Below, piece after piece: positions 5,056-64,000 of a DNA stretch of 64,000 nucleotides; within the stretch, counting starts at the first letter, position 1, and each line of letters begins with the position of its first letter. A model generated the notes under the pieces. The model ran no database searches, was not told the origin of the DNA, and saw only the letters and a list, made by a program, of their open reading frames with translations. The translations under genes and the position numbers were made by a program. This DNA comes from Ischnura elegans (lineage: Eukaryota > Arthropoda > Insecta > Odonata > Coenagrionidae). Where the stretch lies: contig NC_060251.1 in NCBI RefSeq assembly GCF_921293095.1, forward strand, positions 92,924,566 through 92,988,565, written 5' to 3'.

Positions 5056-5104
5056 ATATCACCGTTGCTAGTCCCGGCATACTTAAAATAGTGAAAAGGA
5101 TTGT

Positions 5105-15560: not shown

Positions 15561-15564
15561 CCCT

Positions 15565-28870: not shown

Positions 28871-28899
28871 AGGGCGCTCATGTTTGATAATATGTATCG

Positions 28900-31400: not shown

Positions 31401-31432
31401 ATGCTTAATATTAGTAAGTCTCAGGATGTAAG

Positions 31433-41100: not shown

Positions 41101-44100
41101 TTCATCGTCAACTGCAAAAGGATCTTTATTTCATTTTGCTTTGAATATTTGTGAAAGTTTTTTTTTAAAGGTGTATGTGCAATTGAGAGAAGTCATTACT
41201 GTTTACCGCTTTATAAAATGAAAGTAATAATGAAATAGAATGTTAAACCCTCCTCCAAAGATATTATTTGTTGTACAGCAATTAGTAAATGGAAAAATCT
41301 TTTTCGTATGCTTGTCAATTTCTGATTTATAAAACATTATCATTCTTTAAAATAATTCTTCGTTTATCCAAATTTTCCTTTTTATTTATAAACTTATGTA
41401 TTGTAACCTCCCTCCAACCGCCCTCCCTTCTTGACTCCCTAGTCCGATAATTGAGCCGAGGGGTGGGGTGGGTGATGTGGGGTCGCACATTCAAGGGGAG
41501 AAGTGGGAGGGTTTGGGGTACTCGGGCAATTTTGGGTCAAGTGTGGGACGCACGGGAGATCCCGAAGCACTCGGATGGGATTTAAAAAATAAGAAACAGG
41601 AAGAAAATAGGTAAGGGAATTTCGGGACCCTTCGATGACTGGTGCGCTTGAAAGAAAGAGAACTTCCGACCTAAGATTTTCATTCGACACAGATTTAATT
41701 AGATTTTGAATTACGAAAAAATACACTGAAAAATACATATGATTAACATTTCTGACGTCAGCGAAAGTAAGTAAACAAAGCTAAACCCAAAAGATATTAT
41801 AAAAAAAAAGACACAAACAAGAAATAAGAGAACATTTTTCTTCTTTTAGTCCGCAATCAAATTTTATACCATCTTTTAATGCACTTTTAATCTTCATTGA
41901 ATGGATGATAGTTAATTAAGCACTGCATGGATTTTGACAATTTGAGTAACAATAAAATACAGGAAAAAATGAAATACACTCCCTATCCTTATAACACTAC
42001 GAAACAACGAATTATGCAAGCTTGACGCAAGGGGAACAACGGCTTTCTGTTCCTTTTGGGGGGGCGGGAAACCTCTTGAACATGGGGGTTATATTTTGGA
42101 ATAAGAAAGGAACACTGATGGGGACCTCTCATTAACGTGTCTCTTCTTTTTAGGGACGTATAAATTGGGATTTGGGGCATAAACAGTACTTATCAGGCCT
42201 TTGGTCAGTAGTCGTTGGTAAACAGATTCCTTTGGTTGGTTTGCACTACGTGGTTGATTCGCCTTCTGCTGCCGGCATGGTGGACAGCTGCTGGTGAAAT
42301 GCGTGAGGTTGACCTTTTCCGGGCGCTGGAAATTCTCCCGTACCGTGTCGTATTTTCAAAGAAAGCTGCCTCCTTCTCAGTCCAACCTCCAACGTCGTTT
42401 CAGAATTTTTCTCTTCTCCACCCACATCCTCGTCTCCTTATGTTGAGAAAGATGTTCTCTACAATCGTGATCGGCAATATGACCACAAAAAATAGTAGAT
42501 AGTAATAGACAAGAAAAAATAGAGCTGAATGATGAAGAGCCATGAAAGCTGATTGCTAGTGGCAATGACTACTGATGCTGACCCATGAATATGAGCCATC
42601 TAGATCCTCTGCACACAAACAATTTATACCCCAATGGAGGGGTAGAATCCTGGATTAGGTGGGGGGGGGGGGGGAAAGGAGGGAAAACGGCAATAAAAAC
42701 CACTAGTCACTCTTCTGCCATCAATTTGGGAGGGGAATTTCTTCATCCGAATTCGAATTTCTCCATTGTTCATAGGGGGTAGGAAAACCTTGGGGGTTGA
42801 AAGCCACAGAGCTGAGTCACAAGGCAAGGTGGTAGAGGGGTGGGGAATGCACTTCTTTCTTCTGCTTCTTACTCAGACGCACGATAAGGATATGCTAAGT
42901 TGTGATTAGAAAAGGGGGGGAAGACAACTCACTGACACTCAAACTCCACACGCACCCACACACATGCACTTATATAACAATGAAAAAAAAATCACAGGTG
43001 AAATCATAAACGGAAGCTCTCCTTTTTGCAAAGCACCCATTTGAAAGGTCCTTAAGGAACCGGCCAAGCAGCGACGGTTACAGTATGTCATTATAAACTC
43101 TTTTCCAGAGGATATCATTGCACTTAGCCGCATTTTCCATAATAGGAAACAACACTTTTGCTGGAAATATTGGTAATACTTGCAATATTTACTTTAGTGC
43201 AGTAAAAAATTTTATTTAAATGTATCATTTCCAGATTGAAAAATTAATATTAGCTGCATTACCATTTTCATTGGAGTTTTTCCAGAAAATGATTAGGTCT
43301 GAACAGGTTTCCGCCGCAGTACTGACGAAGAGCAAAGAAATGTAGGAAACATATGTGTGTGTTGTGGGGAGGTACATACCACAAGTTTGACAAACTACTT
43401 TGTACATTTTAATTTCAAATATTTAAGGAATTAAGGTTTACTTTAAAAAAAAGAGTGAAAAAATGGCTCCAGCATCACAACTCATAACATCACTTTGTTA
43501 AAATAACAATAATAAAATACTAATTTTTGCCAAAATGTCAGTCAACGAGCATTTTCTCTAATAAACGGTGATCACAGAATGTGTTAAGGAAAGTTTTTGA
43601 TAATTAATACTCATTTTCTATTGTCTTCTAGTTATTTTATTATGGTCTAGCCTCGATTAGGTACTCTTAGATGTTTAATCTACATATATGTATAACAGAG
43701 GATGTTTGTTCGTCTGTCCGTTGTGTGTTTCTATACGGCTGCATGGATTGAGGCCAAGGTTAATACAGAGGTCTCATGCTCATAAAAGCCTGTACTGCTA
43801 CTTTAGGTTTCCTCCGGTGCGTCCTTTGCATCGTTTTCTTATTACCGAACTATGCAAGTGCACTCAGCCTCCTAGCACCTATTTCCCACCCTCTGCTTAC
43901 CCTCCCACCATATGGTAAAATCCCCATTCACTCAACCATGTTTGTATATATCTTTTTGCACACTGTATGCGAGTTGAAGCCCGATTTGGCGACCTCCAGT
44001 TCCGATACTGCCTTTTCTTGCTTCTTCACCGTTCACAGGCAAATAGCCCGCAAATAACCTTGCTGTCCTATCCCGACAAATTATATTTCTTCTTGCGTTC

Positions 44101-47100
44101 TTTCAAATTTTCCCTCCTATAGGTCCTTATGACCATGAATTCCAAGTTCTAAGTTTCCCCATCTCTAGGTACTATACTCCCCAAGCAACGCCGGGTGGCT
44201 GGCTAGTTTCTATTATTCATTGTTCAATTTCTCCCTCTAAAGTTATGGGTGGATTATGGAATTTTTTTGCTCCTTTCACGCTTCTGTGATTTTTCTCAAA
44301 CATTTTCTCCTCATTTAAGGAAATATGTCCTTAAAACTGTATCCTGAAACTTCACGAGGATGCTTTAGGTGAAGCATTTATAGGGATTGCTTAATTAATG
44401 AGGGTAATGGGTTCCTTATTTTGTTCCTGAAAGGAGTACTCCTTTGTTGTACTCATGTGCACAAATAAACTGACGTAACATACGAAGAAACTAGCTGCAG
44501 GGGTCCAGGGTCAAACAAGTTACGTTACAATGGCTTTGGCCAATAATGATACATTTTCACTCCAAAGAGAAATTCAAAATATCCTTCTGACTTTGGTGTC
44601 TGATAGTTAATGAATGAAAAAATAATGAGTCTTGGAAAATTTCCATTTATGTTATGATAATATTTTAGTAAAAGATAGATGGTTAAAATTAAAATCTCAA
44701 CTTGAGGAACATCCCCTATTCAAATGAAACGTTGGCTATTCGAGGAAAGGCAACAGCCAAAAATGATTTGACCACTGCCTGTTGACGATGGCTGGTCATT
44801 GTTTAATGGTGGCCAATTAGGTAGGTGTGACTGATCACTTTTTATCAAAGGCATTTTGGGCAACCTAAATTTTACCTTTACTTGTTTTGCAACATTCACC
44901 ATGATTCATTATGGGTGATTCAAATGCACTAAAGAGTATCCATAGTGAGGAGTTTTGCATCGTAATGGCATTTGACTGAATTTCCATTACCAATAATCTT
45001 AATCAGGCTATTTATTTGCAAAAATTTCACGGAGGAAACATCACCTTGACCGGGGTACGAACCTGGATCACTTGAATTTGTGCCAGATAATCTTCCTCTT
45101 GAAATACCTAGGCATCTTTTTCCTCTGAAGGGTTTCGCTATCGCAGGGTGTTGTTATTTTTGGTTTTAATGCATGCATGGGAATATATTTTTTCCTTATG
45201 TAGTGAGTTCTTAACTTCATGTTATTTGCTGCAGATACAGCAACCACAGCTCCAACATTGGAAGGAAAACCTCAGTCGGACACATCTCAAGAGGGGAGTG
45301 CGACATGTTCTACAGAGAATGAAAAGAAGAGAGATAGTTTGGGAAAATTTGATGATCATCTCATCCCAGGAAGAGTGAGTAAAAGAAGCCGAAAGCTGGA
45401 TAGAACATCTAGTGGATCTAAGGTATTTATGTTATTATTATATGTTGCAAAGGTGGTTTTTCATGGTTATTGGAAAGTTTGCCACATTATAGGAGTCCCT
45501 TCAAAATGTACTTTTGCTTTTAACTTGATTTTGCTTGGGTCTTGACTTTGCTCTGCAACATTATTTTAGACTCTCCAACTTTGTACTCTTGTCTCTTTCA
45601 GATATGCATATGCCTTTTGGCGTACGAATATCTGAAAGTTTGGTGTAAGGGAAACGCAGAAAAACTGCTTACTTTGGTATTGAATTTTCAACGTAATATT
45701 TCCTGCAATGCAAAAGCCAGGGAAGGCCATCTGGAGTCATATCATCTATCATTTATGTAGTGATTTTTGTTCATAAGCATGCAAATTTGTATTTCTGAAA
45801 GTTTTGTCGTCAGCTAAATTGGTTCTCTTTTAGAAAGCGAGCTGTGTAATGTTAATGTTGGATATTTGTACAAAATAAACTTTAAATAATATGTTATTGA
45901 TATGTTTTTGGTTATCGCCCTTAAATTGGACTGTTGATGAGGGGATTCTACTGTGAGTTTCACTTCGATTGGCAGAAAATTTGATTGATGGTCATTCGAC
46001 TTTGGAAGGAGTTTTTGCTATACTATTCATCCAAGTGAGAATGATGGTAATGATCTAAATGTGATTATTTTCAATTCCAGTGAGATGTGTCATGATCTAG
46101 ATTTTCTCAATGAAATATTAGAGTTAAACTTAGTTTTTTTGTTGTCTCAATGGGAAGGGGAATGGATGATAACACACCAATGATTAGGATTGGTGCAGCA
46201 ACACCAGTCTCCCCGCTGATCATTGCCTAAGTCAATAGGAAAACATATATTGGAAATATTTACAACTTAAACATCCGTTGAATCCCCACTCTTTGGATAT
46301 ATTCTCATATGCAAATCATGAGCAAATCTTAATTGCTATTTTGGAACACCAATGAAAACTTTAGTAACTGTAATTTCTTTCCAATTTCAGGAGGGCAGAG
46401 ACTCGTCATCGAATGGTTTAGCTGCTAGAAGTCCCTCAGCAAAATCCCAACTACCTTCAACTGCTTATGGAGTGGATTTAGCCCGCCATTTGAGAAACAA
46501 AGTTGATTTCACCCCCGGAGCTAGGTTGGAAGCCCGTGACTTCACAGAGAGATGGTATAAATGCTAAACAGTCATCCAATTATTAATGTCATTTAATTCT
46601 GAGTCATGATTTATGAATTAAAGATGGAAAAAGTAATTTATGTTGAATTTGTGAACAATGACTCTAGTTATGTATGTTAAAGCAGTTATCTCTTAGCTTA
46701 CATACAGTGAAACCTCTATTTTACACTTTTGAATGGACCACTTACATAAAGTGCAAAATTGAGGAAATTGTAAAATAGAGTATCATTTATTAAAGGTGGT
46801 ATTGTTTGGGACCTGATAAAAAGTGTGCAAAATCAGGGAAAACGTAAAATGGGTGAATGTAAAATCGAGGTTTCACTGTATTTAGCATATTGCTGGATAA
46901 TATTTTTCAAATTTCTAGTAAAATTCTTTTAATTTATTTATCTCGAGCAATACATTAATACTGAACAACTTATGAAGTTCTCATGAATCAGTAGTTATCT
47001 TTGCATCATGAATCTCATACCTGTGGCTATCTAAAGTTATCTGTCAATAATTCTTGTCTTGTAATTGTGAAATTTATGTGTCAATTAACATGTTTTTGTT

Positions 47101-50100
47101 TTGGTAGCTTTTCTGTTGTCACTAAGAAAGAGTTAAATTTGTTCAGAACTACAAGAATTTGAATGAGACTCATCGCTATTGCTTGATTGGTCTTTTTCCT
47201 GATGCTTGAAAAAATTTATGCTGTCTTCTTGAACTTTTCGCTGGCTAATGAGTTGACACAAATTTTGACATTTTCCTTTATGTCAAATTGGAATGTTTAC
47301 CTTAGTATTTTCTCAGACATAAACTTTTTTATTGGTTCTGAGGTGTTTCAGAATGTGTCCGACTTTGGATCTGAAGATTCCAGGAAAGGATGCTGGTAGG
47401 GTCGAAACTTTTAGGGGAGCATTTTGGGTTTAGTGACTGCTGAATGGGGGGTCCCAGGTTCAAATCCTGTGTAAAGCCTTAAAAAAAAAACCTCAAACTA
47501 AATCCTCAAAGTGCAAGGTAGCCTAGGGAAAAGAACTGTCCCCCCTCCCATGGATGTGTGTAAATCATATGCCTGTAGCATATTTTGGGGCGAGCTCTAT
47601 TCTCTCCAATCTGAACCAACCTTCGGGTTGAATCACTGAGTAAGTGAAGCTTTTTATGTTCATGGGTAAATATTGACAAAGGTCTACTCTCCATACCACG
47701 GAAATTTGAAAATGATAGCGTAAAGTATAAACAAATAATGCATCTGGAAAAGAAAACAAAGTTCTACCAGTTGAGCAGTAGTGATGTGTCCTCTTCATTG
47801 GCAGACTCGTTAGTGATTCACCCATTTTATGATACCAGTGTAGAAAACAATATCAGCTAACATTGTCGTTCATTGATTTTGGTGGGATGTCCATTGTCTG
47901 TTATCCATTGATGATTGTGATGTAGCAGCTTTATTATTTGAACCTAGTCTTTGGTTTGCTTATGTAGTTAGAATTTGAAAGTCTTAAGTGTTTATAAATC
48001 TTTATTTGGAATTTAAAATGCATGTAATGACTTGTGTTAAACATCAAGTATTCCTATAATGCATCATCATGATGTACCTTCAATGTTGGAAAGTAACTGA
48101 TGTCTTAATCCAATGATTCTGTGCAGAATTGACGTTTGACATCTTTGATGGAAAAGAGGGTGGACTGAAATGATGCATCATGACCCCATGTTTTGGAACC
48201 AGTTATTAGTTTTTTTCTATATGTACGTAATAATTTTGAAAATATTATCCCAGGAAAACTTACTGTCTCATGCCTTTGCCATTTCTAAAACAAGTATCTG
48301 GTCTTTGAGTTAATATAGTAGAAATTCTGTCCTTTTTTCTTAATTACAAGCCGGTACACAGACTGTGGTAATCAGAAACGAGACTGATTATCTATAGACT
48401 TTAAAAGTGAGCAAATATCTTCATATATTAACACCTTTGTTTCAGTTTAAGAATTTCACTGTCGAGGTCTGCCCTGCCACGGACTTTTAGAGGAATTCAC
48501 CCATTGTGCCGATGTGTTATTCTATTTTCTTTTGTTTTAATACTTGGATTCTTTTGGTCACATCATATAAGCGGCACCGAAGTAGCTGGGACCGACGGCG
48601 AGCTATGAGCGGCCAAAAGAAAGGCTCATTCCTCGGTCATAGTGGCTGAAACGGCGCGTAGATGAAGTACATGTTTCGTTCATTATAACCGACGTGGTGC
48701 TGAACGTGTTTATCATATATTTCATTTTCTAATTTCCATTGAATTATGACACCTTCGCAGTAACTTCAGTTGCTGGTAAATTCCTGATAAAATATATTAT
48801 TTCGTATTGTGCATTATGAAAGGCTCTTAATATTTCTATTAGTGCCATAAATTTCAAGAAATGTCAAGAATGTGCATGGGATTATATCATCAAGCAGTCA
48901 TTCAAGGAAGTATGTTCTTTTCGGTCTAGAAAATATTGTTTCTGAATTAGAGGTGGAATAGGGATAGGAGAGGGTATATGTTATAGTGGGTTTCGTCATC
49001 ACTCAATATTGGCAAATTGTACTCATAACTCTATAAAGACGCCACTTTTAAAATTGTATTAAACTGTTCAAAAAATTTATTTAAGGTATGCTGCCAAAGT
49101 TGTCGAAGTTGACTGGGAAGAAGAAGAAGTTTTAGTTCATTTTGAAAAGTGGTCATCAAGATTTGATGAGTGGATTTCAATGGATAGCCCCAGGTTACGA
49201 CCCCCTACATTACCTACTAACAGGTAGGAAATGCATTTTTCTTTTCTTCATTCCCTAAAGCCCATTCTCCTTCGGCCATTTCATCTTCATCTCTCATATT
49301 TAGGTATTTGATCTTTGATACTTTTCATCTTTATAGTGGAATCGATTGTGGTTCATGAAATAATGCTCTGTGTAACGTTGATTGAAGTGATGTTCCTACA
49401 AACCATTCATGTAAAATTTGTGTCCTTTTCAGTGAAAGGATTAGATAATGTTTGTGTGCTTGGTCAAAAAATTAATGTATTTCTTTTATTTTGTTGTTTA
49501 GCTGGTAAAGGAATTTAATTTGTATTGTGAAGCGTCTCTTATAGTATTCAGTAGCATTGAATCCTAAAATTTGGACCAACCTAGGAATTGCGTTGCTATT
49601 TCTGACAACTAATTCATTTATCTTTTGTTGCTAGGTGATGATATTTTACTGATTTTTTTGTCTGGTTGTAGTCACTAATAACTTCTTTGACATTGAAAAC
49701 TTCTTTGGGGTTGGTTTCATGTATCTGCATACTCAGAGTTTTTTATTTGTCTTTTTTTTGTGCATTATTAAGGTGTAATACTGACAATCAACAATATGCT
49801 CTCATAAAAATTATGAAATTTATTAGCATAATCCCTAGGATTTTCCCCAATTCTTGGTGCCTTTGGTTAATGTCTCTCAATGCTTATGCAAAGCCGTGTT
49901 AATAACTGAATTAATCTCTTTAAAATCATTGCATCTTTAGGTCAAAAGTACAATACAGGGAGGGAGAGAAGGTGATGGCGTATTGGCTTGACCGTCAGAA
50001 ATATCCAGCCAAAGTTCTGAAAGTACTTCCAAATGGTAGGTTGCCGTTTGTCTTTTGAATATGCCAGAACTCATTGTTGATCTTAACAGTTTTCCAACTG

Positions 50101-53100
50101 TTTCAGCTATTTGTCTTGAATATCTACTTTTTTTCAGATAACTATGAAATAATGTTTTATGACGGATACACAAAGACCGTTTCGGGGAAGAGGATGGCAA
50201 AAGCAACAGAAAAAGAAATTGAGAAAGCTAAAAAGGTATGATACTTTCAGTCATATGCTATGAGTTTCAAGTGTTGTAATTGCATTTAAAATTCTTGTTA
50301 CACATCATTTTGTCTTCCTTTTTGGAGGGGGGATTAATTTGTTTAGAGCCTTCATGGAGGCATTGGTTGTAGCAGGTTCAGTAACGATTTTAGAAATACC
50401 ATACCAATTCATGCTAATTGTCGTGTGAAACATTAATTTGTCAATGCATGAAGGGGGTTGGAATGGGCCTGTTCAGTAATTTTTAATCATTATCTATTGT
50501 GGTAGTGCTTGAAAAATTTAGAGATCCCTATCGTTTTATTTCTCCATCTGTTGGATTCTTCTCTAGTTATTCATCATCACAGGTCACCAATCCTTAGATT
50601 GGTTTGATGCAGCTCTCCACTCAATTCTCCTATCAACTAATCTTTACTCACTTATTTACATATTTCTTCTCTTTATCTATGCCATTTATTTTATTCGAGT
50701 CTTCCCTTTCTTTTCTTGCCGTCTACTTGTCCCTAGATGATTGTCTTCGTCGGGCCATCGTGTCTCAGGATATGGATGATAATGTTGTTCTGTCTACTCA
50801 TCAAAGTTTTCATTAGGCTTCTCATATATCCTACTATTCTTAAGACTTCTCATTATTTACTTGGTCAATTCGTTTGATCCTCTTGATTTCTCAGATGTAC
50901 TTATTGTCCATGCCTCACTTCCATAGAGAAGCATGGTCCAAATGTTCTAACTTAGGTAAACTTAAAGGTCTAACTTACTAGGTATTCTTGGTGAAAAATC
51001 ATTGACTGATTCAAAGGATAAGTTTGTGTCACAAGCCCATGGTGAGCTCACTACCACTTCTCAACTACTCCTTGGGCTTGTGCAGGCATCCAACATAGTT
51101 TGTTGTTGTTTACATTCTTGTGTGTTAGTCCCTCCCTTATTAATGGGTTCTCCGCTAAGGAATAAGTAAATCAGAACTTTACTGAGATCACTGACTCATA
51201 AAAATTGGGCAGTAACTTTCCTATTTTTCTCTTGGTAGCTAACAAGAGAATGACTGGTAGGGAAGAATATTTTCTCGTAACTTAAACTACTGCTACAAGT
51301 CTTTAAATGGAGCCTTGAGATAATATGTGTGAAGTTGAATTGGGAGTGAAACCACACTCTGTGAAAACGTGCAATAAGTCTCAGAGACTTCAATTGTTTT
51401 CAGTCGACATGCATACTTCCTAACTCTCAAGACAAAGTCTCAGAATTGGAAACAATTTTGTTCAACTGAGATTGGTCTCAAAATACTATTAGTGGCATTA
51501 TTTTCAGTAATTTTCCTTCAGTGGATACATAGGTTGGATAATTCTTTTAGACTTGTGTCTCAGAGGCTGAGACTTGGCTTCGGTAGACACAATTGTGAGA
51601 GAAATCTCATGATTGAGTCTTGAGATTTGGTCACCAGTGGGCTCCATGGTATACCCTCTTATTCCCTTAAAATTCCATGGAAATCTACCTAAATGGTTAA
51701 AACACTTAAATAATAATCATAATTAGATAATAAAAGAAAATTGTTGAACAAGCCTCTATGCTTTACTTGTCACCCAATTCTTGTACATAGCTGCTGGTTA
51801 ATTTTATCCAGGAGGTAGCTTTATTTTTGAGTAATTTGTTATAGGAAATAATCATAATAGTTCTCAATTAAAGATGGTTGGATTGGATTCCTCGGATATT
51901 GTCCTTCACTGGATACTTTGGATCCAAATTTTCTGAAGATATCGGATCTGGATCCAAAATTTTGAAATAATGGTGAATGCAGGGTCCCATGAGAGAGAGT
52001 GTTCCAATCCTCTCTTTGTATGTGCCGTCAAACTATGATGCTTGTCCTACTCATGAATCATTTTGTTTAAAATCTCTCGTTGGGGTTATGCAGCAGAGTT
52101 TCAGCCGTGGAAAGGCAATTTGATAGGCACATAGGGTGACTCTTCCCAAGAGATAGAACAATCATCGGGGTCATAGCTTAGCGCCATAGGATAAAAACCA
52201 TGTCAAAAGTAACTACGTCGCAGATTTCAGAAAACCACCCTCGGGCCCTCATCAGCCCATGCCTCTCCACTCCATGTTTCTTTTTCATTTCCAAAACCAC
52301 TCAGACCATAAAACATTGTCTTCAAAGGAAAATATGTATTTAGTTACAAAAGAGAAATTGAAGTGTGTTTCATCCCTAAACCGTCTCACCAACTTGCCTT
52401 TCTGGAGGGCAAGTGCTAGTAACTTTCTGAAGGGTAATGGTGAGTAACTTTCTGGGCCTGAAGATGACTTGATAGCTTCGGTAATTGGATGAAATGCACG
52501 AGATTTAAAAAAGACCAAATGAGACCAAACGCAATCATTTCTGACGATAGTTTAGGTTTTTCATCCCTAATTTATTGCCACCAAGTTTTTTAGTTACAAC
52601 TAGACTATACAGCACACTCCCTATTATCCGGGCTAATGATAAGGAGAGACGGTGCGAATTATCTGAAAACACGAATAACCCAAACTTTCACTTAAATGTC
52701 CTGTAATGTTCATAATTTACGTACAAGAAACAATATATTATAATTCATGCAGTTATTCTGTTATTTTAGAGTACTTCCCAGACTCATTGAGAGCTTACTT
52801 CGCTAGTTCGTGATCTTTTTAGCGGCGATCATGTGGTCGTACTTGTTTTATTAATGCTCCATGTAAGGCCTGGTTTCGACCACACATCTGTGACTTACAA
52901 GGGGAATACACGACCTTCGCATCGCCGATCGAGCTCAAATTTTGCGAATCGGTAGTTTATGGGTACAAATGTAATATGCCGAAGCGAGACGACGCACTTC
53001 TCGTGAAATTCCGAGAAAAAAGCAATTAAAAATCGTTAAAAATGAATGTACGCTATATAAGCTGTTTTGAACGCCCATGTTAAACAATAGGGTGACAGCC

Positions 53101-56100
53101 CAGTGGATACGGTGTCCGACTGTGGAGGTGAAGGTAGCGAGGTCGATGCTCGCTCAGGGAACTTTTTTTTTGTGTTAATTTTTAAGAATTTTATTGTTTA
53201 AATTTTTAAAGTTCGTTTTCTTATCTTCGTTACTACTATGGAATATATTTTTAAAAGAGTTTTTTTAAATATTTAAATCAGGAATGGATCAGCTTGGGAT
53301 TAGGAACTGAGGATGAAGGGTGGATAGAAACCCGGCGTCGGCATTAGCCTGCTCTTAACGAAAGGCGCCAAGGGGACCACGGCTTAACGTCCCATCCGAC
53401 GGACGGTGTACTGCACAACTAGTGTAATCCACATTACACGCAGGGATTGAATTTAGGAATGCCCCTTAATTCTTTACCGAGATTTGGATGTGGAAGGCCA
53501 GTATACTGCCTCACCACTCCAGTTAATCCTTTATTTGCAATTTTCAGGATGGAACTCATCATAAGGACATGCAAAGCAAAGTGATTTGCGGCACCACGAA
53601 CAAGCAGAAAAGGCTGATCTATCGGAATGTTGAACGCGTGGTTCGCAGCTAATATAATTTTTATCGATGAGCAGCTCCCAGCAATAGTGCCACGCACACG
53701 TTAACTCATCTGTAGGAATATCCAAGGATAGAGTCTCTATGTTCAAAAGAAGTGTGTACCCCTAACGTATCAAAGCGATTAAACCAAAGGAAAATATCAC
53801 TTGACACACTGTATCTTATGTACATTCACTCCAAGATGGCTCTCTGCCTAACAAGCTACTATTTATCTCTCCTCACCATAGTATCAAATCAGCAAAAAAA
53901 AATCAAAACAAAAACAAACATCCTCACAGACAAATAAAACACAACAAATGAACTCAAAAACAGAAAACAAACCAAACACATACAAAAGTGATTCCGGTCA
54001 TAAATACACATACATCACCCCTTTCCGCTCATGCCCGTCGGCCGCGAAAAAGGGAAAAAATTTGCAAAACTTTCCCCTATTATTCGATTCTTCTATTACA
54101 GGTTAATCAAGTACCCACATAACATTATATGTTTCCGGGAAAATTATTGAACATACATGTTTGCTTCGAAGCTCGCTGGCACGAGACAATTTTTCGTAAA
54201 TGTAAATGACGTGTGTTTTCCTTCAAAAATTATGCACAGTCGTTGCAGTTGTGGAAAAAACGCCTTTTCTACTTATTCGTGGTGCCGCAAATCACTTTGC
54301 TTTACATGTCTTTATGATGAGTTCCATCCTGAAAATATCAAATAAAGGATTAACTGGAGTGGTGAGGCAGTGTACTGGCCTTCCACATCCAAATCTCGGT
54401 AAAGAATTAAGGGGCATTCCTAAATTCAATCCCTGCGTGTAATGTGGATTACACTAGTTGTGCAGTACACCGTCCGTCGGATGGGACGTTAAGCCGTGGT
54501 CCCCTTGGCGCCTTTCGTTAAGAGCAGGCTAATGCCGACGCCGGGTTTCTATCCACCCTTCATCCTCAGTTCCTAATCCCAAGCTGATCCATTCCTGATT
54601 TAAATATTTTAAAAAACTCTTTTAAAAATATATTCCATAGTAGTAACGAAGATAAGAAAACGAACTTTAAAAATTTAAACAATAAAATTCTTAAAAATTA
54701 ACACAAAAAAAAGTTCCCTGAGCGAGCATCGACCTCGCTACCTTCACCTCCACAGTCGGACACCGTATCCACTGGGCTGTCACCCTATTGTTTAACATGG
54801 GCGTTCAAAACAGCTTATATAGCGTACATTCATTTTTAACGATTTTTAATTGCTTTTTTCTCGGAATTTCACGAGAAGTGCGTCGTCTCGCTTCGGCATA
54901 TTACATTTGTACCCATAAACTACCGATTCGCAAAATTTGAGCTCGATCGGCGATGCGAAGGTCGTGTATTCCCCTTGTTAGTGATCACAGATACAGAAAA
55001 GTGGTTAGCACAAATGCTTCAAAATCGCTGCTCGACGTCGGAAACTACACTGTCAGGCACCACACCACGTAGTCGCCTCTCGCACAAGTTGCTCAGGTGG
55101 CAGCTGCTGCGGGACGGGTATCCGTGATCATGGAGCGTGGTTGCTTGCTGCGAGGCTTGGAAAACAGGAACACAGTGCTCCCGTGAATGCAGCCAGTGCG
55201 CGATCACTTCCGTTTTAAGAAGGGAATTCTAACGGAAATATAAGCCTGGGGTATCCTATCATTAATGCAGTAATTCAGATGATTTTGCATCCGATTTTAT
55301 TTTTTTATTAAGATCACGGAAAACCTTGAGTGAGCGAGGGTGAAAATCATGCTCGGATAATCTGCAGCACGAATATACCACTCCAGGTTAATTGGGAGTC
55401 TGCTGTACTAATATTCAACACAATTTGCAAAGAAACAAGCATAGACCATCACCCCCCTCAAACAAAAAGGACTGACTGGAAGCGCCAACTGCTTATATCA
55501 CATAGCTCACCTGGCTTCACTTTGAAGGTGTCGACGTCACAAAATAGCAAGATCTGACATGTTCGTACTTGACTCCCTCATTCATAGTCTCATTGCTTGA
55601 AAAACCGAGGGATCGCTTTCCTTCCCCTCCATTTGTCCTGTAGGCCCTTCTGCTGCCCTCTCCTTCCTCTTGAGATCGATGAGCGATCAGGCAAAATCCA
55701 CATCGCCGCTACTAAAGCATTTGCGGGTGAAACACAAGTCAGCATGCGATGAGAAAGTGACAAAATTCAGGGCAAACGTGCATGGGGAAAATTTGAATAC
55801 ACTCAAATAACTTGAAAGCTTATAGAAATAATTTTTATTCAGTTAAAATATTGAAATGTGTATGAAAATCTAAATAGCATTCCTTTGATCGCATGTACCC
55901 AGAAGAAGCTTTAATAATTGCTTCATTTAATTAAATATGGACTTGGATCTGAAAGTATCTGAAGAACGGACACCATAAATCAAGTGCAGTGAGTCCTCGT
56001 ATAACGTCACTTACCGTTACTGAAAAATGTGACGATAAACGAAATGACGTTAATCGAAACATAATATCCCATTAGAAACAATGTAAAAAGTTAATATCGG

Positions 56101-59100
56101 CTCCTAGACCTCACAATTCCTACGCGAAAAAATTTTAGCGTATCATATCTGGGGCATCTTTTACGATGGGAATGCCAAGCTATGGCATAAGTACGAGTTC
56201 CTGTCTTCATCGACGACAATAGCAGCACTGACGTAAATCCTTCTCTATCTTTGTATCTTCCCGCATTTGCTTTTCGGCTTCGCTATGGTGGTCCCCCGCG
56301 CGAGCGTCGCCTGGGCATCATCATCGCTGAAACATCGTTGCAGTTCAGGAACCAAAATTATCGTGAGCACGGCAAAAAAAGTGATGACAAAAACTCCGAG
56401 TTCTACACGGAAAAATTCCGTGAAATCACTTTTTAGGTTCCTGAAAACCATTATGTCAAGTAAAACCTTGCGCGCCTAGCTAAGAATTCATTTTGCAGAA
56501 AATTTGCTAAAACCGTAATCGCAATTAACAATAAACACACCATTTTACACTTCGTTTAGACTGACTGTATTACCGCCCACAAAACGAACAACCTGCAACG
56601 CCCGCTGCTTTGTGTTTTTTTCTCGCGCGAAATTTAAAAGCCTTGACGTTATCGCGAAGCGAAGGTGCGATAAACGAATGATGGTCTCAAAATTTTCGTG
56701 ACGTTATCGCGAAATGACATTAAACGGGGTGACGTAGAACGAAGACTCACTGTATCCGATCCGGATCTGAAAAAAATCCTGGATCCATCCATACCAATTC
56801 TCAATCATAATACTACTTTTCTACTCCATAGGAAATGCCACTGCCCACAATGCCTGGTCAAGCTGGTGTCATTCCTCCTCCTCCGCCCACCAGTATTTTC
56901 ACGGATACAGATATTGGGACCAAGGAAGACAGAAGGAGACGTAAGAAGAAGCTTGATGTTGCAGGCCTGTTTGCTAAAGGCTTTCGCCAGAGCGCAAGCA
57001 AGAAAGAAGCGGAGGAAGTGAAGAAAGCTGAAGAGGAGAGTTTGAAGGAGAAAGAGGAGCCAGTTGAGTCTCAAGCTGTGGATAAGAGCGACAGCAAAGC
57101 AACTGACTCTCAGAATGATGATGAGAGCCCAGAGGAAGGCCGATTAGTGTACGACAGTGAGGATGAAGTGGAGGTAAGTGTTGCTTTAGTCCTAAATACA
57201 TTGACCACCATAATGTTTTAGTACATATTTCCTGTGATGCCATTGGTGTTTTACTATCACTTATATATGATTTTATCAAACTTGGATCATAACTTTGGCC
57301 ATGATTGGCTGAGGTAAGAAAAAATTTTATCTACTGATCAATAGATTTTAAGTTCTGTTTATAACCATGGTGAGGCCAAGAAGTTCTGACTGCAACGTAT
57401 GCTTGATATTGTGAGGCCTCCTAAGAACCTTTCTATTTAACCTGAAAGTAACTAGGGTTCCCCATTTTTCGAGTAATGATGTGAGTGAAGTGGAAGTAGT
57501 AATATTAAACAGAAGGGAAGCATGTTTATTTTGCACATCAAAGCAGCCACATTGATTGAATTACTAGGTATAGCTCCAATGAATGCTATCTGACCAGCAA
57601 GTATGGAGTGTTTAGGAAAGATCTACTGATGCTAATCATAAGTGGCTGTTGAAAATCAGTATTATGAGGGAAGGATTGGTCATACCCTTATTGTTGAGGT
57701 GGAGGACCGTTGTTTGTTTTCATTCATGACGATATTTGTCAAATTCGTGGCATAAAAAGGCGTAGGATTATATCTGATAGTAAAAACGGCATATTCCTAC
57801 AAGACAGCAAAATTGGGTAATGTGGGTAGCATAACTGCCTATAGATGCTGAATTTGGCCAAAGTTGCAAAACTTAATTTTATACGCAACATTAATGCTTA
57901 AACGCAAAAACTTAATTTTTACCCAACATTAATTTTATACCATAAGCAAATTTTTTGGAAGGCCTATATTTTCAATTTACCTTATTTAGCATGTGATTAG
58001 GTAAAATGACGAGAAAGAATTATATATTTTCAAGTATTTCTTTACTTGGCTGTAAATGGGTCAAAGTTGATGAATTTTGATGGTGAGTGAATGAATGTAA
58101 TGTTTGGTTTGAGGGGAATTTTTTTCCTGAGTGGCATGCTCATTTTTGTCTGTAAAATCAGGGGAAATGGAATATTAAAACAGGTACATCAAGTTCTCCA
58201 ATTCTTGTTTAAACCTTAACTTCATGACAATGACAATTTTGTAGAAATTATGATTTGTTAATGAATATTTGAAGAGGAATATAAAAAACAATCCCTTAAA
58301 TGTTTGTTCATGCTGATATATTATGATGCTAATGGGTATTTATCATGTCAAGTGTGTTGATATATCATGGATATTTTTTCATTTTTGTTCTTATTTTCCC
58401 AGGAACGTGTGTATAGTCCTCCACCAGTTGAACCATCTGCAGAGTCTTCAAGTCCACCTCGTGGCAAAGGAATGAGAACTAAATTCAAGCCTCCATCTAA
58501 AGACATTCCTGAGACAGAATCTACGAGGAAAAGAAAAATACAAGTGTTGGATGACTCCAGTACTGATTTTCTTCGTTTACGATTCAAAAGCCGGAAGAGC
58601 ACCCCTGTGGCTAAGAAGCGTCCTGAACTTCCTCCAGAAAAGGAGGCTGAGGTCAATGTGTCACCCCAAGAGCCCCCAATGCAATATAATAGTATGTACC
58701 TCATCAATATATAACAGGGTGTTACAATGTAAGATGTATGTGTGGTTTCCATAGATTGATGACAACTTGAAGTATAATTTCTTAGCAATTATTCTATTAC
58801 TTTGAATATGAGTTGACATTATCTTGTCATTACTTTTTCTCAGCTAAGAAAAACTTCAGAGAAAAATGCATCATCGTCTTCTCATGGTGTTCTTGATACT
58901 ATACACTCACAGAAAAAGTGTGATGTTTTATATTGATTTGAAATTATCATCAATAGAGTAGTTGCTCACTTTTGAGAAACTCAATCCAAACTGTCTGTAC
59001 CACCCAATCACCCTAAATTTCAGATCTTATGTTCATAGGAGATATCGATGATTCATAATTATTTATTAAAATCTAAGAAATTGCAATTGCTCTGAAACAT

Positions 59101-62100
59101 CCAAGCTTGATTTTTCAATGAGTGACATTAGCTTGCATGCACAACATGGAGAAGATTTGTAGCTATATGCATTTCCTAAGCATGATTGATATATGAAACC
59201 ATATATGGGATCATTTACGCTTATCATTTTTCATCTCGTCAATAGTAAGTTGCCTCAAAGGGTGATTCAAAATGGTATATTTTTTGTACTAATCCTGTGT
59301 TGGTCTGAAACTGCTACCTGCTAACAGCCTGCATTGCAGTGGCGCACATATTCTCGCCCCAAGGTCTTCTCACTCGACGTCAGTGGGAACCAGAATGACG
59401 TCATACAGGCTTTTCCCATCATTCATACTTGGCCGTCGCGTCGCATTTTCGCACGCTTGAAAATTTTCACTTTTCATTTAATCATGAAAAATAGTTATCG
59501 TCATTTAAAAATTTAAAAGCATGAAATGCATACTCCAGGAGTAATAATCTTTCAATTTAGGCAATAAAAATATAATGGGAAACCACCCTATTGAGTTGCG
59601 AGGATTTTTTTTTACCCATACTCCAGGAACTTTTGATCATTAATTAAAAGAGGTCAAGAAAAGAGAAAAAAGAAAAGTATTTTTTAGGTCTTCATCCAAT
59701 TTATATATAATGTTTATGCATTTCAGGAAAGCAAATTAAAGAGCCAATCCATGTACCTGATAAGAAATTGCCGGCAGGGTGGCGCAAGTTTGCCATTAAG
59801 AGGAAAATTGGTGCTTCTGCTGGAAAGTGGGACATATATATGCAAAGGTAAAATGTCTGACTGAATCCATGGGTCAGTGAAAGAAGCAAATAATAATTGT
59901 TATTATTTTATTATTACTCCTTGGCACAAATTTCTCTGCATTTCTTATTCAGATACAGGAAGACTATTTTTAGGCTAGTTTCATTAGAATGTTGAGTCAG
60001 GAAAGAACTGCAAATTGTATATGACTGAATTAAAAAGGCCAAATGTACATCTTCATTTCTGGCTCTTATTTTTTCAAATAATGGATATTAGTAAACTGCA
60101 GCTATATGAGAAATGAGGTTCAGAAAATCTGCCTTGTATGTGACAGTAAGGGAGTAAATTGCCTGCCCCTTCTGCTTCTCGACTTAGGCTCCAAAAGCTC
60201 TGTGAGGTTATCATAATTTTATTTCCATTTGTGTTAGTAAATTTTCCTGGCAGTTAAGAAATTTATAAGTTTAACATATTATATTAGTCTTTTGATCCAA
60301 ACATAATGGTGAAGAGTTTTTATGACACATTTTAATTTAAACTCTGGTAATTTAAAAAATAAATTAATCATTTCTTCTAACTTTTCTGCAGTTTAATTTC
60401 TTATATTGTATTCAGTTGTTGTAACAGAAATGTTTCTTAGCAACCATATTCAATAATGTGATGTTGCTGAATTGATTGCACCTTCATCTTTTGAGAAGTA
60501 TCTTTCCCTGTGCAGGTACTATATTTACTTATGAGTTGATTTTATTATCAATTGATGTAGTTGATACTGTTTACGTATTGTGCATCTTATTTTAATTGGA
60601 AATTATTTGTGAAGCCTTAATGTGTGATCTTGAGTAGTTCAGATTTGCTAAACAGTTTCATTCATGATTTAAATATTTGTATTGTGTCAAATTTCATTTC
60701 TTTTTTTGTTAAATATTTTTCTGACATTTTCAATGAAATAATTTTAAATTTAGTGCAGAGTTTTTGTGTAATTTTTTTGTGGAAATACTATTCAAGTGTA
60801 AAGTATTTCTGGATTTTTTCTCCTTCTTTGTTACCTGTTTAAACTTTTAATTTTCATCTTTAACATGTTTATTTTCATATTTTTAATAAATATATTTTTT
60901 TAAATGATTATGCTGAGCAATTGTTTAATCAGCTATGTTATTACCTTTATATTATATATATCTTATTACCTCATATCATTTTCTTTAAATTTAAGTGAAG
61001 CATCTGACTGATTCTTTCACCCTCTGGGTCCCATGTTAGGCAAAACCCCTCCATACTTGGTACATCTTTGTTTTGTAAAGCCTGTACCATGATAAAACTA
61101 AAATACTTAAACTGGGGACGCAGTAGTTAGTTTTTTATTTAAATTTAACGGTAAGGAAATGCACCTGCCAAAAAACCATATGAAGTTAAGAAAGAATCTA
61201 ATTAATCAACACTAATCTTTGAAGACAGTATGATTATACAACAATAGATACCACTCTGAGCACTCACACTGCTTACATTGTGGTTGCCATCCTGAAAAAA
61301 TAAAAAGTCCCCTTTTGAAATACGATCTCTTTCTTTCCTGGTGTATGATCTTGGTCAAGTCTTATTTTGTCCCAAGTTAGATCCCTGTCACAAGTGTGGG
61401 CTACTGACTGTACCATATTTATCATATTTTCATTATTGTTGCACCTCATTCATCCATATATATTGAATAATATATGATGTGCCTCATATGTATTGATTTT
61501 CTGACAAAAAAGTAGTGGTGCAATAAAACCCTACTATCACCTGTGCTTGAGGATATAATATTTAGTTTCATTGCATCTGTTTCTCCTTGGATGGAAAACC
61601 TAAAATTTTCAATGAAAGTTTGCATCAAATGGAGACTTCAATTAATTATGATAGGTTGATGGGTTGATTACTTTGTACGTTTCACTTATCAAGTTACGCT
61701 GGGTCATAAAAGTAGTTTCCATATCTAATTTTTCTTCTCTTTTTCCAGTCCGGATGGTCACAAAATTCGATCTCCCCATGCTCTCCGTTCCTTCTTTGCC
61801 AAACGAGGTGTGGACAACATCAACTTAGATCGGTTTGACTTTGCACCCAGTAAGGCAGTCTTTCCTCGTGATGGTGGTCGACCAGCCCTAGCTCTTTCAC
61901 CAGAGGAAATAAACGCTGCCCTTGAAGAAGAGAAGACACCCTCTAAACCCTCTAGTCCGGGACCCCCTATGAGACTTTCAGCTGGAGGTCCCAAAGTTTT
62001 GCTCCCTAAGGGTCACTCGCCTGTTAGTCCAGTAGCCAAAAGACTGAAAACTTTGATGCCTCGTGCCAGGACTTCTACTGGAGAAAGTTCCGGAGAACCC

Positions 62101-62149
62101 CTACCTCAGCTGGATGCTATTTCTCCTGCTGAGACACCAGAAAGTGGTG
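34943..62149 (+). CDS. MBD-R2: MBD-R2/PHF20-like chromatin protein, 5' part of gene (10 coding exons, 3' end outside window)
   Basis: Spliced model: 34943-35132, 45235-45422, 46391-46554, 49086-49223, 49941-50035, 50138-50235, 56832-57173, 58403-58691, 59727-59847, 61749-62149. All junctions are GT-AG and phases agree, giving 2,026 nt or about 675 codons with no internal stop. Seen in order: polar Lys/Glu/Ser-rich N-terminus (1-163); Tudor-like domain 1 (about 164-225, with GARLEARD, then W-x-x-x-x-DEW); Tudor-like domain 2 (about 230-285, with [11 protein letters not shown] and the FYDGYTKTV strand); Pro-rich and Lys/Glu-rich linker with basic clusters RRRRKKK and RKRKIQ; MBD (about 508-576, with [19 protein letters not shown] and SPDGHKIRS); basic tail with PVAKRLK. 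Family knowledge: PHF20/MBD-R2 proteins are NSL-complex subunits that read methylated histones and help MOF acetylate H4 at promoters. Tudor plus MBD in one protein favours the insect MBD-R2 form, since vertebrate PHF20 has no canonical MBD. The expected C2H2 and PHD fingers lie beyond the window. The start ATG has a good context (CAACCATGA) and opens the phase-compatible exon 1. Unseen alternative or extra exons cannot be excluded. Confidence 0.87.
36692..36729. repeat. Perfect hairpin, 17-bp stem, 4-base loop (intron 1)
   Basis: gcattccaaaattgatg, then gttt, then catcaattttggaatgc. The stem is perfect but short and does not extend, so it is shorter than usual for a miRNA precursor. Confidence 0.75.
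37238..37417. mobile_element. Non-autonomous hAT element (180 bp), perfect 8-bp TSD (intron 1)
   Basis: The left end cggtgccggatttaccgtta and the right end gggtaaatccggccctg are inverted (type 'CAGNGCCGGATTTACC'). It is flanked by accccctc on both sides (37,230-37,237; 37,418-37,425). Confidence 0.82.
38415..40050. repeat. Cluster of gaactgttc / tgaacagttc inverted motifs
   Basis: gaactgttca and tgaacagttc occur as an inverted pair at 38,426 and 38,459. Variants (gttcattt, gaacagg, tgaacagtta) recur at 38.68-38.93 and 39.97-40.04 kb. These may be the ends of one or more unassigned elements. Confidence 0.35.
42661..42674 (+). repeat. Mononucleotide G14 run
   Basis: Fourteen consecutive G in intron 1, on the coding strand. 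Prone to sequencing error and slippage. Confidence 0.9.
43679..44206 (+). mobile_element. Helitron-like non-autonomous element (intron 1)
   Basis: It starts TC followed by tacatatatgtataacagag and gatgtttgttcgtctgtccg, then tatacggctgcatggattga, the conserved 5' region of a widespread insect repeat class. It ends caagcaacgccgggtggctg then gCTAG|T, matching the Helitron 3' hairpin plus CTRR rule. It has no target duplication and a host A|T insertion context. Non-coding. Confidence 0.65.
45015..45110 (-). repeat. tRNA-derived SINE (family 1), minus copy, near exon 2
   Basis: The reverse complement contains gatccaggttcgtaccccgg, tcaaggtgatg, then tttcctccgtgaaatttttg, matching the B-box and tail of the copy at 4,922. 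It lies about 125 bp upstream of exon 2. Confidence 0.55.
45235..45422 (+). CDS. MBD-R2: MBD-R2-like exon 2 (residues 64-126)
   Basis: Acceptor TTTGCTGCAG|AT and donor AAG|GTATTT. It encodes a Ser/Thr/Glu-rich stretch followed by basic KRSRKLDR, with no recognised domain, and ends in phase 0. A reading frame continues past the donor into sequence that looks non-coding (hydrophobic, AT-rich), which supports the donor. Confidence 0.72.
46391..46554 (+). CDS. MBD-R2: MBD-R2-like exon 3 (start of Tudor 1, residues 127-181)
   Basis: Acceptor CAATTTCAG|GAGG and donor GATG|GTATAA. The last third encodes [18 protein letters not shown], the opening of the first PHF20/MBD-R2 Tudor-like domain. The Trp codon is split TG|G by the intron and completed exactly by exon 4. 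Confidence 0.88.
46705..46878. mobile_element. Pogo/Tigger-type MITE (174 bp), TA target duplication (intron 3)
   Basis: The termini CAGTGAAACCTCTATTTTAC and GTAAAATCGAGGTTTCACTG are inverted and directly flanked by TA on both sides (46,703-46,704; 46,879-46,880). These are typical pogo/Tigger ends. Non-coding. Confidence 0.85.
47433..47492 (+). repeat. SINE-like tRNA head with A-run (intron 3)
   Basis: ggtttagtgactgctgaatg is followed by the B-box ggttcaaatcc, then tgtgtaaagccttaaaaaaa. It ends in an A10 run, as in a retroposed copy. Confidence 0.45.
49086..49223 (+). CDS. MBD-R2: MBD-R2-like exon 4 (core of Tudor 1)
   Basis: It encodes [19 protein letters not shown] and then [19 protein letters not shown], the diagnostic core of the MBT/Tudor-like fold: aromatic, acidic strand, then W-S-x-R-[FY]-D-E-W. 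Acceptor TTTAAG|G and donor CAG|GTAGGA. This is the strongest family signature in the gene. Confidence 0.92.
49941..50035 (+). CDS. MBD-R2: MBD-R2-like exon 5 (Tudor 2, first half)
   Basis: It encodes [19 protein letters not shown] and then [12 protein letters not shown], the first strands of the second Tudor domain (EGE-V-x-A-x-W-x-D motif). Acceptor CATCTTTAG|G, donor AATG|GTAGGT. The split Asp codon is completed by exon 6. Confidence 0.9.
50138..50235 (+). CDS. MBD-R2: MBD-R2-like exon 6 (Tudor 2, second half)
   Basis: It encodes [15 protein letters not shown], the last strands of Tudor 2, followed by the basic helix [17 protein letters not shown]. Acceptor TTTTTTTCAG, donor AAG|GTATGA. 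Only 102 bp of intron separate it from exon 5. It ends in phase 0 before a 6.6-kb intron. Confidence 0.9.
50570..50950 (-). pseudogene. LINE 3' fragment, minus strand (intron 6)
   Basis: caatccttagattggtttga and tgcagctctccactcaattc correspond in reverse to the NQS/WRAASNQ C-terminus of the (GAT)n-tailed LINE. atcgtgtctcaggatatg and cacttccatagagaagcatg match upstream coding pieces. catcatcac marks the 3' tail. Heavily mutated. Confidence 0.6.
51335..51555 (+). repeat. Dispersed repeat also present at 62,430-62,580
   Basis: Shared ordered phrases: gagtgaaaccacactc / gagtgaggccactctc, cagagacttcaattgtt, catacttcc, caaagtctca / caaaatctca and ggcattattttcagt / ggcatagttttcagt. Both copies are in introns of the same gene. 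Confidence 0.5.
52614..52700 (+). repeat. Pogo/Tigger-like terminus (solo end)
   Basis: cagcacactccctattatcc then gggctaatgataagg and cgaattatctgaaaacacg resemble the terminal 'tattatccgg' sequence of Tigger-type elements. It is preceded by TA. I found no matching right end. Confidence 0.4.
53093..53160 (+). repeat. tRNA-like segment in the left arm
   Basis: gacagcccagtggatacggt resembles an A-box and gcgaggtcgatgctcgctca a degenerate B-box. A T-run (pol III terminator-like) follows at 53,163. The mirror copy is at about 54,715-54,783 on the minus strand. It is not a canonical tRNA. Confidence 0.4.
53531..53746 (-). pseudogene. Cys-rich C-terminal remnant, possibly piggyBac-like transposase (left copy)
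   Basis: It reads outward into the left arm and ends ...[20 protein letters not shown], then a stop. The spacing C-x2-C-x4-LC-x2-C-x4-FH resembles the C-terminal cysteine-rich domain of piggyBac transposases. No catalytic DDD region is visible. The assignment is tentative. Confidence 0.35.
54157..54345 (+). pseudogene. Cys-rich C-terminal remnant, possibly piggyBac-like transposase (right copy)
   Basis: It mirrors the left copy and ends [20 protein letters not shown], then [11 protein letters not shown] and a stop. It keeps two more upstream Cys than the left copy. It reads outward into the right arm. Confidence 0.35.
55987..56752. mobile_element. Pogo/Tigger-like non-autonomous element (766 bp)
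   Basis: The left end CAGTGAGTCCTCGTATAACG and the right end CGAAGACTCACTG are inverted, with subterminal 'gtgacgttatcgcgaa' variants repeated at both ends. The right flank is TA; the left flank is TG, probably a mutated TA. The interior has short frames only. It ends about 80 bp before exon 7. Confidence 0.72.
56832..57173 (+). CDS. MBD-R2: MBD-R2-like exon 7 (Pro-rich then Lys/Glu-rich linker, residues 292-405)
   Basis: Acceptor CTACTCCATAG and donor GAG|GTAAGT (perfect consensus); both flanking introns are phase 0. It encodes [10 protein letters not shown], a basic cluster EDRRRRKKK (possible NLS), a charged helix with [20 protein letters not shown] (coiled-coil-like), and an acidic SEDEVE end. 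Codon use and the clean 342-nt frame differ sharply from the surrounding repeats. A pogo-like element ends only about 80 bp upstream of this exon. Confidence 0.85.
57174..58402 (+). other. Intron 7 of the MBD-R2-like gene
   Basis: GTAAGT...TTCCCAG. AT-rich. No repeat or gene recognised within it. Confidence 0.7.
58403..58691 (+). CDS. MBD-R2: MBD-R2-like exon 8 (linker with NLS-like clusters, residues 406-502)
   Basis: Acceptor TTATTTTCCCAG, donor ATA|GTATGT. It encodes a Ser/Pro-rich stretch, [36 protein letters not shown] and an acidic end. It has no globular domain, and the basic clusters suggest nuclear localisation. One base carries over to exon 9. Confidence 0.84.
59300..59592 (-). mobile_element. 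668-bp TIR family, copy D (5' part only, minus strand, intron 8)
   Basis: Reverse-complemented, it starts AATAGGGTGGTTTCCCATT and follows the family through gaaagattattactcctgga, gtatgaatg and gcaggctg-tagcaggtag, then stops matching. It lies about 135 bp upstream of exon 9. It is the only family copy inside the gene. Confidence 0.7.
59727..59847 (+). CDS. MBD-R2: MBD-R2-like exon 9 (first half of MBD)
   Basis: It encodes [19 protein letters not shown] and then [14 protein letters not shown]. This is the start of a TAM/MBD fold: L-P-x-G-W, basic strand, small loop, G-K-W-D-[IV]-Y. Acceptor GCATTTCAG, donor AAAG|GTAAAA. The AG|T Ser codon spans to exon 10, a split inside the MBD. Confidence 0.9.
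59848..61748 (+). other. Intron 9 of the MBD-R2-like gene (interrupts the MBD)
   Basis: GTAAAA...TTTTTCCAG, 1.9 kb, very AT-rich. No repeat or gene recognised. Confidence 0.75.
61749..62149 (+). CDS. MBD-R2: MBD-R2-like exon 10 (second half of MBD, Pro-rich tail)
   Basis: It continues [20 protein letters not shown], the canonical second half of an MBD (S-P-x-G-x-K-[IL]-R-S), then [11 protein letters not shown], a Ser/Pro-rich stretch, [14 protein letters not shown] (basic) and an acidic end. The donor GGTG|GTAAGT is perfect consensus. No later exon is recognisable from 62,150 to 64,000, so the PHD and C2H2 part lies further downstream. Confidence 0.9.
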
Positions 62150-62429
62150 GTAAGTGTCTAAAAAGCAATTTTCAAATGTTCCCTCTTAGTTGAAATGTTG
62201 TAATAGAAGCCCCTGAAAACAAGTGTGGTAGTTCTGTTGCAAGTGAATCTGTTGTCATGGCTAGTTCATGCAAAATAAAGGGCAGGAAATTTAGTCACCG
62301 ATAATGAGTGCTCACCATTCTCCTACTTCTTTGACTACTAGTACCCCTTGCATTACACAACTTTTCTTAATCTACATCTCCACTGGAGATTAAAAGTCTC
62401 GTAATTGAGTGTCTACAGTGGAGTTACAG

Positions 62430-62580
62430 GTGAAAATGGGAGTGAGGCCACTCTCAGAGACTTCAATTGTTGCCCGTGGGCAGTCATACTTCCCATCTAT
62501 CGAAACAAAATCTCAAGAATGGGAAAAAATTTTATTCTTCTGAGACTTATAGGTGGCATAGTTTTCAGTTACAGTAGACT
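62430..62580 (+). repeat. Dispersed repeat, second copy (intron 10)
   Basis: It matches 51,335-51,555 in the same orientation and ends at ttttcagttaca, directly before the possible pogo-like element at 62,575. Confidence 0.45.
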
Positions 62581-62833
62581 TGTTAATATGAACAACGTTA
62601 TTGCGAAGTTGGTCCCGGCAAAACGACTAATCCAATCTATAGTGAAAGAAATGTAATTACAAAATTACAAACTTCAGTTCTGGATATAAAGTGGACTTGA
62701 TTGCAAAGTTCCATAGATAAGCAAAGTGTTTATATGCTAACTAACTCTCTTACAAAGTTAGTTTAATTCGTACATAATATAACCTCTGGTTTTCCCACCT
62801 CGTCAACTTCGTTACAGCGAGAGTTCTCTGTAT
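62575..62833. mobile_element. Possible pogo/Tigger-like element
   Basis: TA-CAGTAGACTTGTTAATATG on the left and GTTACAGCGAGAGTTCTCTG-TA on the right are weakly inverted and TA-flanked. Internal 'gcaaagtt' phrases repeat. The ends match poorly, so the call is tentative. Confidence 0.4.
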
Positions 62834-64000
62834 TTTCCATCAGTGGTCCATTGTTGAGATAAATCCTCAAAACAGTAGTCTTGGAGACCTCTCAAAGGCT
62901 GTGAAATTGGTAAATAAAAGGGAAATTTTGCCTTTTTTGCGAATTTTAAGTGAATCAGTGGAAAAATCACGTCTATCACATGAATCAAAATCTATTAAAG
63001 CCTAAGCCATCATTATTTAACACTGCTGACGTTCATTTGATCTCTCTCATTATGATTCCAAGGTCAACTGGCTTGTTTTGTCTTGCGCACATTGCATTCG
63101 CATGATATCGTGCACTGTAGTGATGTCTCCACCAGAATTTGCCATTAAATTTACCACAGCCTCTCTCTTCGATTCACATTTATCAATCCTGAAATTCTCC
63201 TAAATATCTATAAAGATGCGCTTTCTCTGCTGAAGAATTAGATGTTCTGAATCAATAAAGTGCTGAAAGAAATTTAATGTAGCCGCGAAAGAGCGGAGAT
63301 ATAAGCTCACGTGCCCAGCACGCATCAAAGTCGAGCAGTAATTCTGGTGACTCACCGCGATGCATTCGACAGCATTATTGGATAACTTGTTGCAGGAAAA
63401 CCTTAAGTGGGGGCCTAACTTAACAATTATGTTGACTTTAACATGGCCGCTTGCTGGGGACTAAAACGACTTGCCACTGTTCACTGTGTGGCAGAGCGAG
63501 TCTTCTCGTTTGAAAGCAGCCTGAATTTCACGCCATCATGCTGGGCGGCCGGCAAAAAGTCGTTTCATCTGAAAGCGACCTCAATGTACCTTGTGCCTGC
63601 ATTTCAAGCCATAGACGGCGCACTGTCAGGCCAGATTGAAATGGGTGCCTTAGTGACCACGGCGGCTGTCAAATGTGCCGAGCCATCAATGGCGCAATTC
63701 GTCTCATTTGAAGACATCCATCGAGACCTATGGTTATTTCAAAGCACAAAGCGTTGGGGGAAGTTGGGGAAGGGAAGGAAGAAACCAAAAGGATTGGAGA
63801 AGAGGGGGTTCTAATTATTAGCGGACGGATTGTCGGATATTCGGCACTCCACTGACTTTCGTTGCTAAAAAAATCATTTCGACTCACCCCCAGTTCAAGT
63901 TTCTTTGTATCCGATTGTGTTTAGTTATACGTGCTTCTTTCACTGCCCTTCTTGACCGATTGGCAACAGCTGTAATTAATACTAAGTGGTTTTGTTGAAT
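62834..64000. other. Intron 10 continuation, no exon recognised
   Basis: A 123-codon plus frame (63,443-63,814) lies in a somewhat GC-richer patch. It has no domain I recognise, no acceptor in frame with exon 10, and no Cys/His spacing of a PHD or C2H2 finger. Confidence 0.45.

Follow-up and report, generated by a model that had tools for sequence, protein, structure and literature searches.

The host gene and its intron

The window, that is, the whole 64,000-nt stretch of the Ischnura elegans genome that was analysed, contains on its plus strand a gene that, judging by its sequence, encodes a pair of Tudor domains together with an MBD-like domain, and whose nearest counterparts are PHF20 and PHF20L1. 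An exon at 49086-49223 encodes the latter part of the first Tudor domain, and the second Tudor domain is divided between exons at 49941-50035 and 50138-50235. The latter exon is located directly upstream of a 6596-bp intron at 50236-56831, and the exon directly downstream (56832 to at least 57161) is acidic and of low complexity. Further exons are indicated by splice signals and frame at about 46391-46554, from about 58403, at 59727-59847, and from 61749, all on the plus strand. The exon edges were read from splice signals and frame, some of them counted by hand, and the exons on either side of the intron at 50236-56831 join in phase 0.

The naming of the gene is based on the comparison of its joined Tudor exons with solved structures, the best match being to PHF20L1 (E = 6.9e-19). 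The second Tudor domain matches PHF20-type chains, for example 3qii (1.7e-5), and the Tudor matches to solved structures comprise 39 distinct sequences at E-values up to 0.01. Pfam searches of single exons gave a match to MBT of 19.8 bits, and two of the later exons matched MBD with 13.6 and 17.5 bits, all under the curated cut-offs. Two of the six X-coded frames covering 44000-63999 gave Pfam matches. The Tudor-Tudor-MBD order resembles that of MBD-R2/PHF20 of the NSL complex.

Structure of the inverted repeat

The intron contains a long inverted repeat, with a left arm of 718 nt at 52897-53614 on the plus strand and a right arm of 717 nt at 54262-54978 on the minus strand, separated by a spacer, or loop, of 647 nt at 53615-54261. 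In a pairwise alignment of the left arm with the reverse complement of the right arm, 709 of the 718 columns are identical, corresponding to 98.7% complementarity. The nine differences are eight substitutions, five of which are transitions, and one indel of a single nucleotide in a run of T. The longest identical runs cover 266, 237, and 102 columns. The pairing of the arms lies far beyond chance. A 20-nt piece from the arm end, searched for with up to three mismatches, occurs nowhere but at the two arms, and 100 shuffles gave a mean of 0.00 occurrences. The six other inverted pairs in the window (at least 40 nt, with arms within 6000 nt of each other) are 78-85% complementary.

A repeat search over 50000-58000 gave inverted arms at 53164-53614 and 54262-54712 (98%, 647 nt apart) and a second inverted pair at 52893-53209 and 54666-54982 (94%). 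With blastn, the match is carried outward to 52886 and 54992, at 98.2% identity and with four gap positions, but this gapped extension (52886-52896, with its partner at 54979-54992) is not significant alone (p = 0.225). The sequence-only reading had described a near-perfect inverted repeat at 52897-54978, with arms of about 0.7 kb and a 647-bp spacer, and had placed it in a chromatin gene, within an intron; the alignment bears out the structure, and the splice signals and matching phase bear out its placement.

The spacer has no match elsewhere in the window. The arms show nothing there beyond two weak matches (65% and 77% identity; E = 0.001 and 0.003), and no second copy of the inverted repeat was found in the window. 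A six-frame translation of 52600-55412, with stops written as X, gave no Pfam match up to an E-value of 1. None of the four tandem arrays in the window falls in the arms. The observed/expected CpG ratio is 1.19 and 1.22 in the two arms, as compared to 0.84 for the window, and this raised ratio is compatible with a young sequence but gives no date.

The window also contains repeats of other kinds. Copies of a family of about 600-670 bp, which are 81-90% identical, are located at 15564-16157, 19102-19769, 32981-33649, and 59311-59592, the last of which is reversed. A reverse-transcriptase remnant on the minus strand at 27502-28335 matches Pfam RVT_1 under the cut-off (E = 0.0022), and DNA similar to this remnant is found at 4226-5410 and 50571-50888. 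A tRNA-Ser (GGA) gene or tRNA-derived repeat is located at 4921-4995, and a tandem array at 23121-23254 consists of 5.9 copies of a 23-bp unit with 95% matches. A small inverted-repeat element at 2934-3065 has 52-nt arms that are 85% identical, with 28 nt between them and near-perfect outer ends. Another long-TIR structure, at 28465-31825, measures about 3.4 kb end to end and has arms of about 320 nt that are 76% identical; structures with long TIRs thus occur in this genome.

An older element around the repeat

The inverted repeat is enclosed by the two ends of another element. The left TIR of this element is located at 52610-52629 on the plus strand, with a TA in front of it at 52608-52609, and the right TIR at 55386-55405 on the minus strand, with a TA behind it at 55406-55407. 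The 20-nt TIR pattern, which was written from these two ends themselves, matches exactly at 52610 on the plus strand and at 55405 on the minus strand; with up to three mismatches allowed, the window contains no other copy, and none of 100 shuffles contained one. The flanks between the TIRs and the arms show a faint inverted similarity to each other: 0 of 400 shuffles were as good for the whole flanks, and 1 of 400 after exclusion of the TIR ends and of the edges of the arms.

We take the outer element, at 52610-55405, to be pogo/Tigger-like, following the consensus of that family. The class name is provisional, because no transposase remnant, including one of the pogo type, was found with Pfam in the six frames of 52600-55412. 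A non-autonomous copy of a pogo/Tigger-like element is not expected to carry a transposase. Under this provisional name, the inverted repeat appears to have been inserted into an older pogo/Tigger-like element, and this nesting is new compared with the sequence-only reading.

The explanation that we prefer, and to which we give about an even chance, is that the inverted repeat is derived from a transposon, most probably a DNA element that is non-autonomous and has long TIRs (foldback-like), located in the older pogo/Tigger-like element. Such an origin is favored by arms that are equal in length and end flush around a spacer lacking any Pfam match, by the halves of another element, with window-unique TIRs and a TA, that bound the repeat on both sides, by the faint further inverted similarity of the flanks, and by the presence of the other long-TIR structure, at 28465-31825. 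The whole repeat would then be one mobile element.

According to this scenario, a short pogo/Tigger-like element would already have been present in the intron, and a foldback-like element with long TIRs would then have landed in it. The outer 600 bp or so of the arms would since have been kept or made near-identical via gene conversion between the arms. On transcription of the host gene, pairing of the arms would yield a duplex some 700 bp long. The entire structure would leave with the spliced intron, and any ADAR editing or dicing would be a passive consequence.

Ends and relatives of the repeat

No target-site duplication beyond chance was found at the edges of the whole repeat, where the highest score was 4, a value reached or exceeded by 285 of 300 placements made at random in the window. 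The two edges have only TTA in common, which is too short to count. Nor was a target-site duplication found round either arm, with best matches of 5 nt, or round inner pieces of the repeat; the random control has the size of the whole-repeat search only, and the searches at the arms and inner pieces stand without a control of their own. The lack of a target-site duplication, of a second copy in the window, and of a transposase remnant speaks against an origin as a single element with long TIRs.

A local inverted duplication, in which template switching or break repair produced a reversed copy of one stretch of the intron, would fit with the lack of a clear target-site duplication and of a second copy in the window. 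However, the arms end flush within the two halves of another element, round a unique spacer, and we consider such a duplication improbable.

A somewhat stronger contender, though still an unlikely one, is that two full-length copies of a repeat of about 720 bp were inserted separately, in opposite orientation and with 647 bp between them, as in an inverted Alu pair. On visual inspection, the arms contain possible tRNA-derived SINE pieces, at about 53088-53160 on the plus strand and about 53220-53530 on the minus strand, which would be in line with two insertions. We do not claim these pieces, because Rfam, ARAGORN, and folding gave no support. There was no Rfam tRNA match in 52400-55500 up to an E-value of 5, the sole Rfam match in this segment being to the lncRNA model bxd_4 at chance level (19.8 bits versus a cut-off of 40), and ARAGORN identified no tRNA in the same segment. 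Folding of the two SINE-like stretches gave z-scores of -0.09 and -2.18. Intronic inverted repeat pairs are reported to be very common (PMC7006430), which also favors two insertions, whereas the lack of a target-site duplication round either arm, with 5 nt at best, does not.

In a search for relatives, exact patterns had no match in viral_contigs (three patterns) or genome_contigs (two patterns), and blastn gave no match in plasmids and phages. The collections searched consist of viruses, prokaryotes, plasmids, and phages, with no animal genomes, and since an animal element is not expected in them, these negatives say little. Sequence words gave no match in the papers searched.

Uneven divergence along the arms

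The differences between the arms are not evenly distributed. A change-point in the alignment separates the outer 607 columns, with two differences, from the inner 111 columns, with seven. The clustering is significant by permutation (p = 0.0005; at most 1 of 2000 permutations was as good). In the left arm, the inner part with seven of the nine differences corresponds to 53504-53614 on the plus strand, the last 111 columns of the alignment. The split favors partial conversion or a composite history rather than one uniform recent origin, and it is not easily obtained if the arm is of one age throughout. The high arm identity had previously been read as a sign of recent origin or ongoing gene conversion; in the light of the split, conversion is retained in a narrower form, as partial conversion or a composite history, while a uniform recent origin is disfavored. 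We infer that gene conversion between the arms over their outer part accounts for the clustering, the alternative being that the inner arm end is of composite origin. Arms that are near-identical in their outer part and diverged in their inner part would represent a dated record, if a small one, of arm-to-arm conversion.

The position of the differences also bears on the origin of the repeat. Their clustering at the inner end argues for an element with long TIRs. Independent copies from two insertions should instead differ evenly, and not mostly in one end of 111 columns. A single copying event in a local duplication would likewise be expected to give even divergence, unless conversion followed. 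Assembly can generate long inverted repeats, and the repeat could in principle be a false palindrome of this sort. A simple read-through palindrome would, however, be identical and without a unique spacer, whereas this repeat has a unique spacer of 647 bp, different outer flanks, and nine differences between the arms, seven of which are at the inner end. An assembly artefact is thus less likely, and we give it very little weight.

Predicted RNA fold

Everything at the RNA level of the repeat is deduced here from structure prediction. The plus-strand RNA of the repeat has a predicted fold of -1465.4 kcal/mol, as compared to -460.8 to -547.7 kcal/mol for eight first-order shuffles, a difference that also counts in favor of an origin as an element with long TIRs. 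In the predicted fold, the right arm is the pairing partner of 711 of the 718 bases in the left arm, and the longest perfect helix is 274. A transcript would therefore fold into a near-continuous duplex, in agreement with the suggestion of the sequence-only reading that transcription could yield a very long dsRNA hairpin. The A-to-I editing and endo-siRNA production that this reading also proposed would be candidate fates of such a duplex. In the fly, work with RNAi transgenes shows that hairpin RNAs recruit the helicase MLE where they are transcribed (PMC4710571).

Circular RNA formation, which had been suggested as well, is unsupported. It would call for arms in introns flanking an exon, whereas both arms are located in the same intron (50236-56831), across which the splice phase matches, and no exon was found between them. 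Arms placed in this way would not draw the two splice sites of an exon close to each other.

The intron might alternatively have been kept by selection as a hairpin-RNA locus that supplies endo-siRNAs or acts as a platform for editing. Near-perfect pairing over about 700 bp would be consistent with a selected locus, but there is no sign of selection, the divergence piles up towards the loop, and the structure resembles nested transposon debris, which makes this explanation very improbable. More doubtful still is the idea that the intron of the PHF20-like gene acts as a source of siRNAs against the mobile elements whose pieces form the arms, with conversion between the arms keeping their outer parts identical.

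Comparison with known systems

Endogenous hairpin RNA (hpRNA/endo-siRNA) loci in the fly offer one system for comparison. Similar to these loci, a single transcript of the repeat could form a long hairpin, but its arms resemble transposon sequence within an intron. The non-autonomous elements of the pogo/Tigger type resemble the outer element in the CAG-starting TIRs and the flanking TA, a likeness that concerns the older host element and not the inverted repeat itself.

The inverted repeat looks like, and would behave like, a foldback element. Tetris, a foldback transposon of Drosophila virilis, has TIRs of up to 1,735 bp, and gene conversion is among the homogenising processes that its authors consider possible (PMC4079207). 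Its copies show target-site duplications of 8-10 bp, and the TIRs can carry internal tandem repeats of about 220 bp (PMC4079207). Like Tetris, the repeat has TIRs of hundreds of bp (718 and 717 nt) and a middle domain without coding capacity, as indicated by the lack of a Pfam match. It differs from Tetris in that it has no target-site duplication beyond chance and no tandem repeats in the arms, the latter being a feature that is not common to all elements with long TIRs. Because a target-site duplication was looked for and not found, we do not claim that the repeat is a member of the foldback elements.

A further counterpart is a class of long (>300 bp), near-perfect (>96%) inverted duplications, of which 54,479 are reported in the pre-mRNAs of 49 organisms (PMC7006430). 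With 144,989 same-strand controls, the inverted ones are depleted yet numerous in pre-mRNAs, and they are reported to be almost absent from mRNAs (PMC7006430). With 718 columns at 98.7% within one gene, in an intron as judged by splice signals, the repeat shows no structural difference from this class and represents one further example, at the kind of site where such duplications are tolerated. Nested within an older mobile element, it resembles the commonplace remains of mobile elements, of which many are already known from animal introns. As long near-perfect duplexes are reported to be depleted even within pre-mRNAs (PMC7006430), every one that survives offers a natural test of the way in which introns with such hairpins are tolerated.
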